A DNA stretch of 64,000 bases, taken from positions 62,001 to 126,000 of the forward strand of contig CAMBMO010000006.1 in NCBI GenBank assembly GCA_945868805.1, given 5' to 3'. The stretch is from Singulisphaera sp. GP187 (GTDB taxonomy: Bacteria > Planctomycetota > Phycisphaerae > Phycisphaerales > SM1A02). The position numbers and the translations under genes were made by a program. This document shows positions 58,102 to 64,000 of this stretch, piece by piece. Below the pieces are notes generated by a model. That model saw only the letters and a list, made by a program, of their open reading frames with translations. It was not told where the DNA came from and made no database searches. Position 1 is the stretch's first letter, and every line of letters begins with the position of its first letter.

Positions 58102-59513
58102 GCTGGCGAGCACTTACCTTCATGTGGATCGCGAGTGCCATCGCGTGTCTTTGCGCATGGTCGCTCTGGACCACTCAGACGACCGCAGGCGGGATTCGAC
58201 TGGAAGCGGGTTTCACTCAAGTCCTCCCCGAAAACGCCGTGCCGTGGTCCCGCGTCGATCGAATCGTGATCACACGGAGCCCGGAGAATCGATTCGAATT
58301 CGTCCGTCGTGATGGGCGCTGGTTTCAGACTCACCCTTTCGACTTCCCAGTGGAATCAGCACAGGTGATGGAAGTCGTCGATCGGGCGACTGCGCTTGTG
58401 GCGCGCGAACCGATCGCTGGCGAAGAAGCTGCGGCCGAGACACTCCGAAAATCTGCCGGACTCGACGCGTCGTCTCCCTCGATCGTCTTTGGATGGGGCG
58501 ATGATCAAGCGACCATTCGCCTCGGTCGTCGCCTGCCAGCTGGATTCGCTTGGGTCGATCTGGGCCAGGATCGATCGCAACCACGCGCTGCGAGGTCGTC
58601 GCTTCACGATGCGACGCTGATGAGCGATTTACGCCAGTGGCGACAGCCCATGCTCTTCGCTCGTGCAGATGTCGAATGCGATCGACTGGTCTGCGAGAGC
58701 GTCGCGCGTGACGGATCGTCGCAGCGACTCGAGGTCGTGCGAGACGGACCTGACTGGAAGGTCGTGTCGCCCATCGCAACGCGAGCGGATCGCGTTGCGG
58801 TCGAACGGTGGCTCGATGCGCTCGCACGCGCGCAGGCGACGGGATTCGTGGTCGACCGTCCGACGGATCTCGCGCCGTTTGGATTGGCGAAGCCGAGCGG
58901 AATCGTGGAGATTCACTCCACCGTGCGTGCGTCCGACGGCTCGGGGCGCCTCGTTGCCGAGCAGCTGACCGAACGTTTGGAAATTGGTTCACCTATTCGC
59001 GCGGGCGCTCAGGAGCGATTCGCTCGCTTGGCAAATCACCCGGATGCGATCATGGAGATTGACGCAACCGCAGTTGCCGCCGCGATTCCTCCGACATTGC
59101 TCATGATCGACCCGACCGCAACCGGCGTACGGCCAGAGGACATTCGCGCAGTTCGATTGGAGCCGTTGGCGGGAGATGCGCTACGAATCGAACGACTCGG
59201 TGCGGATTGGCAAATCTCGAATTCGTCGGGAACGCGTCCAGCTGTGAGTGAGAATGTCGGATGGCTCCTCGGCAAACTCTGCCAACACAGAGCAGCAGAA
59301 ATCATGCTCCGCTCTGCGCCTGCGGACTTGGTGGTGGGACGCATCATCGTCGAATCATTCGACGGGCGAGAGATTTCATCGCTCTCGGTATCGCGAGAAC
59401 GAAACGAAGGACGGTATGGATTTGATGATGGATCTGGAGTCTTGCGGATCTTTTCGCCGAGTCTGGGATTGAGCTTCGATTCTCGTACCTACGAATCGCC
59501 CCCTCAACAGTGA
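58098..59513 (+). CDS. DUF4340-family membrane-anchored protein
   Basis: 471 residues from the ATG in the ATGA overlap. One N-terminal helix (4-24, 'ALTFMWIASAIACLCAWSLW') anchors a periplasmic beta-rich part. The segments 'VDRIVITRSPENRFEFVRRDGRWFQTHPFDFPVESAQVMEVV' (abridged: RFEFVRRDGRWFQTHP) and 'LEVVRDGPDWKVVSPIATRADRVAVERWLDAL' (abridged: DGPDWKVVSPIATRAD) show the repeat pattern of DUF4340 proteins, which regularly follow GldA/GldFG-type ABC genes. It probably forms part of the same transporter complex. Its end overlaps the convergent ribD by 10 bp. Confidence 0.82.
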   Translation: MSWRALTFMWIASAIACLCAWSLWTTQTTAGGIRLEAGFTQVLPENAVPWSRVDRIVITRSPENRFEFVRRDGRWFQTHPFDFPVESAQVMEVVDRATALVAREPIAGEEAAAETLRKSAGLDASSPSIVFGWGDDQATIRLGRRLPAGFAWVDLGQDRSQPRAARSSLHDATLMSDLRQWRQPMLFARADVECDRLVCESVARDGSSQRLEVVRDGPDWKVVSPIATRADRVAVERWLDALARAQATGFVVDRPTDLAPFGLAKPSGIVEIHSTVRASDGSGRLVAEQLTERLEIGSPIRAGAQERFARLANHPDAIMEIDATAVAAAIPPTLLMIDPTATGVRPEDIRAVRLEPLAGDALRIERLGADWQISNSSGTRPAVSENVGWLLGKLCQHRAAEIMLRSAPADLVVGRIIVESFDGREISSLSVSRERNEGRYGFDDGSGVLRIFSPSLGLSFDSRTYESPPQQ

Positions 59514-60676
59514 GTCGTGCGACGCCAGAGTGTCATCGTGTCTTCGCCGCGTAATCGACGGTCGAGGAGGCGGAAGCGGAGCGGGTCCATCGGCTGAATT
59601 TGGTCTTTTTCCCTCGAAATCTGGGTACTCGAGTCGTCGCCGCTCGCAAGCGGGCCAGTGAAGCACCATGCATCGTCGATGAGGTCTTCTTCGAACAGTG
59701 CTCCCAGTAATCCAGCGCCCCCTTCGACGAGAACCGTTGAGACTTGACGACTATGCAATACCCGCAAGAACCCAGCGAGCGATCCGCGGAGGAGTCCCCG
59801 AAAGCACTGGTGCACATTAGCACTCGCGGGTGTCGGCAGTGGGAGCAGAGTCACGCCTGCATTCGCGAATTCCGATCGTCGCTCATCGGAGAGTTCTTGG
59901 ATCGCGGTCGGTAGGGCGGCGATCGAGACCGGTCCGTCGCGGGCTGTTCGAATGATCTGTGCATCGATCGGGGTCGCGAGTTGAGGATCGACAATGATTC
60001 TGCATGGAATGCGACGCGCTCGCGAGATCCGAGGGAGCAAATGCGGATCATCTGCGAGAAGGGTGCCGATTCCAATCATGACCGCATCGACTCTTGCGCG
60101 TTCGCGGTGAACCATCGCGCGGCTTCGAGGTCCACTGATCCAGCGATTCTCTTGATCCCGAGTCGCTGTCCGTCCATCGCTCGTCTGCGCCCACTTCGCA
60201 ATCACCCACGGGCGCGCGCTTCGAATCCGAGCGAGGAACGGCGCGCTCACATTCGTGCATGCAGTGTTTTCGATTTGCTCGACAACAATTCCTGCGGCGC
60301 GCAATCGATCTGCGCCACCGGCGGCGAGGGGATTGGGATCAGCGACCGCATATACGAGACGCGAAATTCCATAAGCAATGATCGCATCGCAGCAGGGCGG
60401 TGTTCGGCCGTGATGAGAGCAGGGTTCGAGAGTTACGAATGCAGTCGCTCCTTGAGCCGATTTTCCCGCGACCTTCAGTGCGATTGGTTCTGCGTGGAGT
60501 TGCCCATCGCGCGCGTGATAGCCCCGCCCGACAACCTCACCATCCTTTCGGACAATGATGCATCCGACCATGGGATTGGGTTCCGCTCCACCATGACCGC
60601 GCAGTGCCAAGAACGCAGCGCGGTCGAGCCACTGAGTGGCAGTCGTCAACCGGCGTGCATCGGTGGACGCGCTCAT
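59504..60676 (-). CDS. ribD: Riboflavin biosynthesis deaminase/reductase RibD
   Basis: 390 residues, slightly longer than usual. The N-terminal deaminase domain has zinc motifs 'HAEPIAL' (~61) and 'PCSHHGRTPPCCDAI' (~86), with the proton-shuttling glutamate in HAE. The C-terminal reductase starts at ~155 ('PWVIAKWAQTSDGRTAT', 'WISGPRSRAMVHRERARVDAVMIGIGTLLADDP', abridged: VDAVMIGIGTLLADDP) and ends with 'LVEGGAGLLGALFEEDLIDD'. It catalyses the second and third steps of riboflavin synthesis. No other rib gene or FMN riboswitch is nearby; it follows fusA by 22 bp and may be cotranscribed with it. Confidence 0.95.
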   Translation of the reverse strand: MSASTDARRLTTATQWLDRAAFLALRGHGGAEPNPMVGCIIVRKDGEVVGRGYHARDGQLHAEPIALKVAGKSAQGATAFVTLEPCSHHGRTPPCCDAIIAYGISRLVYAVADPNPLAAGGADRLRAAGIVVEQIENTACTNVSAPFLARIRSARPWVIAKWAQTSDGRTATRDQENRWISGPRSRAMVHRERARVDAVMIGIGTLLADDPHLLPRISRARRIPCRIIVDPQLATPIDAQIIRTARDGPVSIAALPTAIQELSDERRSEFANAGVTLLPLPTPASANVHQCFRGLLRGSLAGFLRVLHSRQVSTVLVEGGAGLLGALFEEDLIDDAWCFTGPLASGDDSSTQISREKDQIQPMDPLRFRLLDRRLRGEDTMTLWRRTTHC

Positions 60677-60698: not shown

Positions 60699-62813
60699 TC
60701 ACTGCTTGGCGAGCACTTCGTCCTTCAGGCGATCCGGCATGATTCGATAGGTGAGGGGTTCCATCGAGCTCGATGCTCGACCCTGGCTCATCGATCTCAA
60801 GCTGGTCGTGTAGCCGAAGAGTTCCGACAGTGGAACCTCCGCGGTCACAAGACGCAACACGCCACGCACTTCGCTATCGGTGATTTGGCCTCTTCGGCTT
60901 GCGATGTCGCCCGAGACACTTCCGAAGAACTCGTCGGGAGTTGTAACGACCAACTTCATGATCGGCTCCAAGAGTGCGAGCCCCGCTTCAGTGCACGCTT
61001 CGCGGAAGGCGAGAGCGCCCGCTTGTTCGAAGGCGATCTGGCTCGAATCGACATCGTGGTATGAACCATAGACAAGTTCAATCTTGACGTTGATGACCGG
61101 ATAGCCACCGAGAATTCCACTCGCGGCTGCCTGACGCGCGCCATACTCGATGCTCGGGATAAATTCGCGGGGAACAACGCCACCTGCGATCTTGTCTTCG
61201 AAAACGACGCCGTTCTTCATCACCAACTCCTCGGCTTCGGCTTCTTCCTTGGTCATCGGTCGCACATTGACGACCGCGTCGCCGTACTGACCACGACCAC
61301 CCGACTGCTTCTTGAAGAGTCCGCGGACGCGTTCGGCAGATCCGGTGATTGTCTCTCGGTATGCGACACGTGGCTTGCCGACGCTGACCCCGATCTTCAT
61401 ATCTCGAACGAGCTTGTTCTTGATGATTTCAAGATGCAACTCGCCCATGCCCGAGATGATCGTCTCGCCCGTTTCATCGTTGTAATTGGAACGGAATGAG
61501 GGGTCCTCGCGACGAATCGTCGTAAGTGCTTCTCCGAGTTTCTTCTTGTCGTCAGCAGTATTCGGTTCGATCGACATCGAAATAACCGGTTCTGGGAAAA
61601 CCATGCGCTCGAGCACAATCGGGTGATCGGGATCGCAGAGTGTGTCTCCAGTGAACGAGTCTTTCAGTCCAACGACCGCGACAATCTGACCAGGTCCGGT
61701 CTCGTCGAGGGCGTTGCGATGCTGTGAATGCATTTCGTAGAGACGAGAGACATTTTCTTTGCGGTCATTGCCCGGATTCAGCACACGCGAACCCTTTGTC
61801 AACTTTCCCGAATAAATGCGCAGGTAGGTGAGCGTTCCGGCGACATCAGAGACCACCTTGAACACCAACGCTGAGAATGGAGCGTTTTCGGAGTGCGGTC
61901 TGCTCAGCTTAATGTTTGGATCGCGGGCGTCGGTTCCTTCGACGTCAGGGCATTCGGTGGGGCAGGGTAGATAGTCGATGACGGCGTCGAGCATCGACTG
62001 AACGCCGACATACTTCAGCGCCGATCCGCAGATCACTGGAAATGCGCGAAGTTGAGTACAGGCCTTTCGAAGCACTGCCTTCATCTCGGGAACGGTGATT
62101 GAACTCGGATCAATGAGATACTTTTCAGTGAGTGCATCGTCGAGTTCAGCTATTTTTTCAACCATCTTGTGGCGCCACTCTTGCGCCTTTTCTGCCCATT
62201 CCTCTGGAATGTCAGTCTCCGTGATGCTTTCGCCGTTATCCGCCTGCGACCAGTAGAGCGCACGCATCGTCATTAAGTCGACGATTCCTTTGAAGTCATT
62301 TCCCCATCCGAGCGGGTACTGAATCGGGATTCCGTTTGCGCCAAGGCGAGTCAGAATCGAACCGTAGGAATAATCGAAATCCGCACCGAGTTTGTCCATC
62401 TTGTTGATGAGGCAGAGTCGGGGAACGCCGTATCGATCGGCTTGTCGCCAGACCGTCTCACTCTGGGCTTCGACGCCTTCCTTGCCATCGAAGACTGCGA
62501 CCGCGCCGTCAAGAACGCGAAGAGATCGCTCGACTTCGATTGTGAAGTCGACGTGACCAGGCGTGTCGATCAGGTTGATCTTGTATTCGACGCCCTTGTG
62601 ATCCCAAGGGCAGGTGGTTGCCGCGGATTGAATCGTAATCCCGCGCTCTTGTTCTTCAACGAGCGAGTCCATCGTCGCGGTCCCTTGATGTACTTCACCC
62701 ATGCGGTGAATCTTTCCGGTGTAGTAAAGCACGCGCTCTGTGACGGTGGTCTTTCCTGCATCGATGTGAGCGCAGATTCCAATGTTTCGGACGCGATTGA
62801 GGTCAGTAGCCAT
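60699..62813 (-). CDS. fusA: Elongation factor G
   Basis: 704 residues. The GTPase drives ribosomal translocation. G1 is 'AHIDAGKTT' (15-23), switch II region 'DTPGHVDF' and '[10 protein letters not shown]' (G4). '[11 protein letters not shown]' is the canonical switch I. Domains II-V follow to the C-terminal '[19 protein letters not shown]' block. It resembles housekeeping EF-G1 rather than tetracycline-type or EF-G2 paralogues, yet it is not next to rpsL, rpsG or tuf. It has its own promoter and a GGAG Shine-Dalgarno sequence. Confidence 0.97.
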
Positions 62814-62936: not shown

Positions 62937-63929
62937 TCAGATCGCGCGCACGAGGCTGGCTTCGTTCAGTCCGCTTGCGACAAGCGCGGGGCGAACCGAG
63001 GCAACAAATCGGCGTCCGTCCTTCACATAGCCCGCCGTCGGAGCCAAGTCGGTGACCCGCTGTGCAAACCAGCGATTCAGTCGTGCCATCCAAAGCTCCC
63101 GGACATACTTCGCGGTCATTGACGCGAGCGCGATCGGCAGGTGATTCGCCTCCCCCTTGACAGTGAACGAGATCACCAATGGCATGCTCCTCCCGTCTAA
63201 TTGATAAATGCTCTCTCTCTCGTCCTCCGCCAGAATCGTAATGCGATCATCCGGGAATGCGCGGAGCAGATCGTCCAGATAGCGCATGCGCCCGCTCTGA
63301 CGGTCGGCCGCGATGCGAATCGCCACGCCATCCCGGCGAGATCGAAGCAATCGAACGTGATCGATCAAGATCGTCCAGGGCACGCTTGTCTTCACCATGC
63401 CTCGCCGTGCCGCCTCGTTGATCTCTTCGGCATCGATTGATTCGCATGTCACTCCGTGTCCGACGATGGACGCGTTTGTCGCCGCTCGTCGGAGCATTGC
63501 TCGGGCAATGCCAATCTGCGCTTCATCGCACGCCCACGGAAGGTCAATCGTGCCCGCGTACCAAGGAGCGAATGTCGACGGATCGGAAGTGCGTGAGCGA
63601 CAAACCCGCGCAAAGAGCTCTCGGTCGGTAGAGAGAGGGCTTGCATCTTGCTCCAATGCGAGAGCAGCGAGGACTCCACGTTCGATCGTCGCCATCGGAT
63701 GCGCTCGCGTGCTCGCACCCGATCCCTTTAATTTCTTGCTGTCATTGATCGCAATTCGCCCACGTCGATCAGTGCCACTTCGGCAGACAGCGGCCGAGAG
63801 TGCCTTCCAGAGATTGGGTGGTGCGAGTGGATCATTCGCGCCTTCGATCGACCACTCCGAGCATGCGACGCAGAGCGGGCCGATGAGCGGTCCATATCCA
63901 GCTTCATCAATGCCCGCGTAGATCAGCAT
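62937..63929 (-). CDS. Divergent RNase HII-like protein
   Basis: 330 residues from the ATG at 63929, compared with about 200 for typical RNase HII. The N-terminus 'YAGIDEAGYGPLIGPLCVAC' (4-23) is the RNase HII active-site strand with D8 and E9, but the GRG motif is GYG (Y12). 'INDSKKL' (61-67) is conserved. A third acidic residue lies in 'IAADRQSG' (D209). The 'ASMTAKYVREL' block (269-279) matches 'ASIxAKVxRD' with Glu278 replacing the usual Asp. The remainder holds inserts relative to the short bacterial enzymes. It is expected to cut RNA in RNA-DNA hybrids, but the motif changes make the substrate preference uncertain. The start is not fixed; ATG 63995 is an alternative. Confidence 0.8.
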   Translation of the reverse strand: MLIYAGIDEAGYGPLIGPLCVACSEWSIEGANDPLAPPNLWKALSAAVCRSGTDRRGRIAINDSKKLKGSGASTRAHPMATIERGVLAALALEQDASPLSTDRELFARVCRSRTSDPSTFAPWYAGTIDLPWACDEAQIGIARAMLRRAATNASIVGHGVTCESIDAEEINEAARRGMVKTSVPWTILIDHVRLLRSRRDGVAIRIAADRQSGRMRYLDDLLRAFPDDRITILAEDERESIYQLDGRSMPLVISFTVKGEANHLPIALASMTAKYVRELWMARLNRWFAQRVTDLAPTAGYVKDGRRFVASVRPALVASGLNEASLVRAI

Positions 63930-64000
63930 TCGATGCGTATTGTGACGATGTGTCGCTATCCTTGCACGATCACCCACCCGAGGAGCCTCTGACATGACAC

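Follow-up and report, generated by a model that had tools for sequence, protein, structure and literature searches.

The window, by which we mean the whole stretch of 64,000 nucleotides analysed here, carries at positions 62937-63929 of its minus strand an open reading frame of 330 codons plus stop, whose product (P0001) begins MLIYAGIDEAGYGP and has tyrosine at residue 12 and glutamate at residue 278. An alternative in-frame ATG lies upstream of this start, at 63995; the homologues begin at the equivalent of MLIYAGIDEAG, and residue 1 is Met in 43 of 59. The features to which the text refers, all on the minus strand, are the following:

62937..63929, minus strand: predicted divergent RNase HII of what we call the GYG family (P0001), 330 aa
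63891..63908, minus strand: DEAGYG, residues 8-13, putative first two catalytic acids and 2'-OH-sensing GxG loop, conservation counted in 159 homologues
63735..63743, minus strand: DSK, residues 63-65, equivalent to T. maritima DSK 45-47; conserved in 159/159 and aligned to the A. fulgidus DSK
63306..63734, minus strand: stretch from DSK to the third Asp, with the largest insert; 146 residues vs 63 in E. coli, block pLDDT 85-98
63303..63305, minus strand: D209, predicted third catalytic acid; 157/159, Gly in two
63150..63152, minus strand: E260, predicted fourth catalytic acid; Glu in 98 and Asp in 61 of 159, aligned to the KAD Asp of A. fulgidus RNase HII
63096..63101, minus strand: R277-E278, conserved Arg and Glu; R277 in 159/159, residue 278 Glu in 156 and Asp in three; Arg-Glu in A. 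fulgidus
63027..63029, minus strand: Y301, putative equivalent of the junction-sensing tyrosine Y163 of T. maritima; 159/159, its TAGY aligned to SGY of archaeal-type RNase HII
60699..62813, minus strand: presumably fusA (elongation factor G, named from its sequence), next gene downstream; co-directional in 58/73 loci
59504..60676, minus strand: presumably a ribD-like gene (likewise named from its sequence), downstream of fusA; within 3 kb downstream in 28/73 loci

P0001 exceeds E. coli RNase HII (198 aa) by 132 residues, in agreement with the first-pass annotation, which had put the protein about 130 residues above the usual length and had pointed to Tyr12 in a GYG that replaces GRG, a reading that the 330-codon minus-strand frame bears out. 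Relative to the E. coli enzyme, the additional residues form three inserts, one of 26 residues between the first acid and DSK, one of 83 before the third Asp is reached and one of 33 between that Asp and the fourth acid; beyond the fourth acid the spacing is near-ordinary (41 and 29 residues vs 39 and 33). Matched lengths across the GYG family have a median of 323 and range from 263 to 356, and the extra length is kept phylum-wide.

The gene is separated from fusA by 123 bases on the same strand. Neighbourhoods were compared at 81 loci (the best 80 and the window's own), of which the 73 with at least 400 bases downstream were counted; the named records among the best 80 point to Phycisphaerales and other Planctomycetota. 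The arrangement is not fixed, since 15 of the 73 loci have no fusA, and the adjacency is synteny and no evidence for a common function. At two loci from one genome family (G146:C121 and G098:C42) a gene for RNase HI lies nearby, at 69 bases and about 1.8 kb, respectively.

Catalytic acids and the GxG loop

Conservation was counted in 159 non-redundant homologues (70% identity) drawn from 208 sequences, which remained from 212 profile matches once three ordinary RNase HII proteins (L073, L074, L231) and one fragment (L230) had been removed. In T. maritima RNase H2, as described in PMC3025331, the catalytic carboxylates are D18, E19, D107 and D124, R141 stabilises the GRG loop, and the 2'-OH is sensed by the backbone amides of that loop together with Tyr163. 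All four RNase HII acids are present in the GYG family, as D8, E9, D209 and E260: D8, E9 and G11 are each found in 159/159 homologues, G13 in 157/159, and residue 260 is Glu or Asp in every one. By sequence and profile alignment, residues 209 and 301 are the predicted equivalents of the third acid and the junction tyrosine. The counterpart of R141 should be R277, and that of R182 may, at a guess, be R307, which is likewise found in 159/159.

The fourth acid was placed by a HMMER alignment of a profile of 41 relatives with the solved A. fulgidus enzyme, in which the Asp of KAD falls on residue 260 and the Arg-Glu of AKVERE on residues 277-278; in a profile comparison with the archaeal-type RNase HII L074, residue 260 is likewise opposite Asp. 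Hence, residue 260 would be the fourth acid, and Glu278 would be the residue that follows the conserved arginine. The first-pass annotation had taken Glu278 for the fourth catalytic residue, an assignment we reject: that place belongs to E260, also a glutamate, and the ordinary A. fulgidus RNase HII itself has Glu at the position of 278. In two family members (L269 of G069 and L227 of G150), Gly stands in for the third catalytic Asp (IGKQGGR and VGKHGGR), their other printed motifs being intact; since this residue is replaced in 2/159, some members of the family may be inactive or may use another residue.

Residue 12 is Tyr in 138 of the 159 homologues, Leu in 18, Phe in two and Val in one; it is Arg in none, and GRG is not found in the family. 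Since A. fulgidus RNase HII has GKG, GRG does not strictly define RNase HII. According to the first-pass annotation, occurrence of the same oddities in ordinary enzymes would speak against a distinct branch, and two of the three oddities are indeed present in solved relatives: a GxG loop with a middle residue other than Arg is found in A. fulgidus (GKG) and in RNase HIII of B. stearothermophilus (GTG), and the glutamate at 278 in A. fulgidus. Nor is GYG a mark exclusive to the family, as we had considered, because a 198-kb IMG/VR contig (L301:1881-2648) encodes an RNase HII-like protein of ordinary length, assigned by eye from its motifs, which also has DEAGYG. We likewise asked whether genomes with RNase HIII tend to have lost Tyr12. 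Among the 104 of 105 genomes with a readable motif, residue 12 is other than Tyr in 11/27 genomes with RNase HIII vs 10/77 of the others (Fisher p 0.004 on raw counts); only two independent pairs lie on supported branches (sign test p 1), and the link is unsupported.

Family assignment from profiles, fold and tree

The Pfam model RNase_HII (PF01351) matches the whole of P0001 at 43.2 bits, above its cut-off of 25.8, while in a six-frame search of the window's own genome the match appears as two stretches of 21.5 and 19.5 bits, each below the cut-off. Every member of a 125-member set of the family matches the same model at E<=0.001. The curated NCBI models for RNase HII give P0001 at best 39.3 bits against a cut-off of 167; E. 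coli RNase HII, used as a control, passes them (348.6 vs 251 for its best model). Judged by E-values (E<=0.001) and not by bit cut-offs, all 125 members of the set match NF000595 and 124 match TIGR00729. The rnhC model reaches 11.4 bits against 161.2 and covers only the catalytic start.

The AlphaFold model of P0001 has a mean pLDDT of 96.5 and a pTM of 0.94, and its comparison with solved structures indicates a type-2 RNase H fold spanning the whole chain. Among the 50 VIA-align matches listed, every one of the first 25 is an RNase HII, H2A or HIII, with Z between 17.8 and 10.6, before a drop to Z 5.7 at the 26th; the best, 1eke, superimposes at Z 17.8 with an rmsd of 2.9 over 205 residues. 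In a tree built from 72 rows, of which 71 differ, and 206 alignment columns, the 41 GYG-family rows (40 different) lie on one side of a branch with support 96/96 and the 25 RNase HIII rows on their own branch (100/98), while the six RNase HII rows are split, two of them with very long branches; L073 and L074 group with two archaeal enzymes (99/79). With so short and diverged an alignment, the tree can speak for a separate branch and not for where it arose. The suggestion of a distinct branch made in the first-pass annotation is thus upheld, by the separation from both the RNase HIII and the RNase HII rows and by the presence of the family in 191/195 genomes of the phylum. On the strength of the modelled fold and the profile matches, we regard the GYG family as a divergent branch of RNase HII. 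P0001 gave no tblastn match to plasmids or to phages, its model gave no Foldseek match to viral models at E<=0.001, and a literature search by title and abstract opening returned no paper describing the family.

The RNase H repertoire of Planctomycetota

Ribonucleotides that remain in DNA are removed by a repair pathway in which RNase HII takes the first step. The window's genome (2.5 Mb, 95.8% complete) holds no second match to PF01351 in a search that matched 14/14 control genomes; another canonical rnhB, the existence of which the first-pass annotation had left to be checked, was therefore looked for there and not found. Among 61 relatives, the GYG family is present in 59, including 51/51 of those of good quality; the two exceptions, both from the window's genus, have a completeness of 70% and 80%. 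Compared by eye, the PF01351 matches in these relatives (47 of the 61 matched) share contig and place with the GYG-family gene. The wider sample comprised 195 genomes, mostly drafts, drawn evenly from a larger group of Planctomycetota genomes with completeness of at least 90%. The 191 carriers among them mostly have one match per genome, some having two (paralogues or split matches).

RNase HI (PF00075) was found in 150/195 of these genomes and RNase HIII (TIGR00716 at 135 bits or more) in 49/195, 41 of which lie above the curated cut-off; nine of the 58 genomes matched by TIGR00716 fall below 135 bits and were excluded from the count. The GYG family occurs with RNase HI in 131 genomes, with RNase HIII in 34, with both in 15 and with neither in 11, and four genomes lack it. 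Another clear RNase HII is absent from nearly all genomes with the family. Two of the four lacking it, G063 and G085, carry an archaeal-type RNase HII (L074 matches TIGR00729 at 182.1 bits), which may stem from transfer or from contamination; in the remaining two, G073 and G160, this search of mostly draft genomes found neither the family nor any other RNase HII. The count of genomes with another RNase HII is limited to G063 and G085. Excluded were a 208-aa RNase HII-like protein of G213 (155.9 bits vs 167), the divergent HIII-like proteins of G092, G108 and G132, and, in G199, a partially matching frame of 263 aa. The protein of G213 (L231, on contig C21) has GLG in place of GRG, and its genome also has RNase HI, RNase HIII and the GYG family. 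The HIII-like proteins (L233, L234 and L235, of G108, G092 and G132, respectively, from one genome family) are long, with DETGTGE and an extended C-terminus; they lie beside the GYG family in genomes in which no PF00075 RNase HI was found. These three genomes are among the 11 with neither RNase HI nor RNase HIII, which leaves eight, and two of the eight, G086 and G101, belong to genome families (f35 and f13) whose other sampled members have RNase HIII.

RNase HI and RNase HIII avoid each other, RNase HI being present in 15/49 genomes with RNase HIII vs 135/146 of the others (Fisher p 5e-17, with kinship ignored). Known combinations are HI with HII and HII with HIII (Kochiwa 2007, PMC1950709, as given there), and those of the phylum mirror them if the GYG family stands in for RNase HII. 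In the window's genus, RNase HI was not found in 18/19 genomes, the window's own included, the sole one to yield it being G006 (PF00075, PF13456). RNase HIII was found in none of the 19, to judge from the lack of any other PF01351 gene and from the rnhC model run on the window's own genome. Given both absences, the GYG-family enzyme may be the sole RNase H in the genus, which is thereby flagged as possibly living on one RNase H.

In the 2007 survey, the single planctomycete is placed in group E and, by elimination, would have RNase HI only (PMC1950709), and according to a survey of 2025, rnhB is a gene that Planctomycetota "largely lack" (PMC11929135). We infer that this lack was reported because the gene is present and was missed by curated models: a planctomycete RNase HII gene appears to exist, one whose divergence puts it out of reach of the curated models tested. 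What looked like a gap among the repair genes of an entire phylum would thus be closed, and the GYG family would offer a natural experiment on the arginine of GRG.

Proposed function and comparison with known enzymes

Our preferred reading, of which we are fairly confident, is that P0001 would be a working RNase HII from a strongly diverged branch, and that throughout Planctomycetota this branch takes the RNase HII role; the family most likely performs the ordinary RNase HII reaction. D8, E9, D209 and E260 would bind two metal ions, and the backbone amides of the GYG loop would sense the last ribonucleotide by its 2'-OH, with Tyr12 probably lying in the minor groove at the usual place of the arginine and Y301 stacking on the next deoxyribose. 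The enzyme would thereby nick DNA on the 5' side of an embedded ribonucleotide, at which point ribonucleotide excision repair would begin. In the window's genus the same enzyme probably degrades longer RNA-DNA hybrids as well. Possibly the three inserts bind a partner or widen the substrate surface, which are guesses. Counting against this explanation are the low scores with the curated models, the two sub-threshold Pfam stretches of the six-frame search, the replacement of the third Asp by Gly in two homologues, the 15 genomes in which the family is resident together with both RNase HI and RNase HIII, and G073 and G160, in which no RNase HII of either sort was found.

An unlikely alternative is that the family is a type-2 RNase H that has turned hybrid-specific in the manner of RNase HIII and no longer reads single ribonucleotides. 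It would account for the non-Arg middle of the GxG loop, which RNase HIII also has (GKG in 25 planctomycete proteins from 28 loci, GTG in B. stearothermophilus), and for the glutamate at the fourth acid, found within KAE in two solved RNase HIII enzymes, those of T. ammonificans and of B. stearothermophilus (the latter species as named in PMC3025331 and the structure entry list). However, the junction tyrosine, which is missing from RNase HIII according to PMC3025331, is invariant in the family (159/159), the N-terminal domain is absent, with the reading frame of P0001 beginning at the catalytic domain, and the tree places the family apart from RNase HIII. Moreover, the two occur together in 49 genomes, and therefore they are probably not redundant. 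We give slightly less credit to a substrate choice of the family's own, such as a preference for base or flank or for another junction, which Tyr12 and the inserts would determine; this is the strong form of the altered substrate choice suggested in the first-pass annotation. The lack of Arg at residue 12 in all 159 sequences would fit such a choice, as would the extra length, which members across the phylum retain and which AlphaFold models confidently; on the other hand, the corresponding change had little effect in T. maritima RNase H2, where, as stated in PMC3025331, R22A left activity unchanged on most substrates, although one hybrid was cut less at the DNA-RNA junction and activity on a single ribonucleotide fell slightly. 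Residue 12 is, besides, Leu, Phe or Val in 21/159 homologues, so that a specific contact by Tyr would be unnecessary in some members, and the ordinary-length RNase HII-like protein on the viral contig has GYG too.

That P0001 is a fold relative with a role other than that of an RNase H, for example a structural or translation-linked one, is highly improbable. The co-directional fusA downstream in 58/73 loci could be read in its favour, but the neighbourhood is variable (15/73 without fusA, and an RNase HI gene nearby in two genomes), the catalytic and substrate-contacting motifs are conserved, and in genome after genome of the phylum the family makes up for the missing rnhB. Beyond the divergent RNase HII that we prefer, a bolder proposal, which we put forward tentatively and consider rather doubtful, is that a third type-2 RNase H architecture, neither HII nor HIII, replaced rnhB phylum-wide and became the sole RNase H in the window's genus; with a tyrosine in place of the arginine as a rebuilt reader of the minor groove and three ordered inserts, it would combine excision with hybrid removal and have a cleavage preference of its own.

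The GYG family resembles RNase HII and H2 (PF01351; T. maritima, A. fulgidus, M. jannaschii and human RNASEH2A) in its modelled fold (Z up to 17.8), in having all four acids, DSK, the GxG loop and the junction tyrosine, in lacking an N-terminal substrate-binding domain and in its nearly equal C-terminal spacing. It differs from them in having GYG or GLG for GRG, Glu at the fourth acid in 98/159, and three inserts that add about 130 residues, in scoring far below the cut-offs of the curated RNase HII models, and in forming a clade of its own. With RNase HIII (TIGR00716; B. stearothermophilus) it shares the type-2 fold (Z 16.4), a non-Arg middle of the GxG loop and Glu at the fourth acid, whereas RNase HIII has an N-terminal domain and no junction tyrosine, and the GYG family the reverse. 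Among solved enzymes, A. fulgidus RNase HII (3p83, 1i39) is alike in having GKG and not GRG, and Arg-Glu at the equivalents of 277-278, but its chain of 217 residues (3p83) is far shorter and its fourth acid is Asp.
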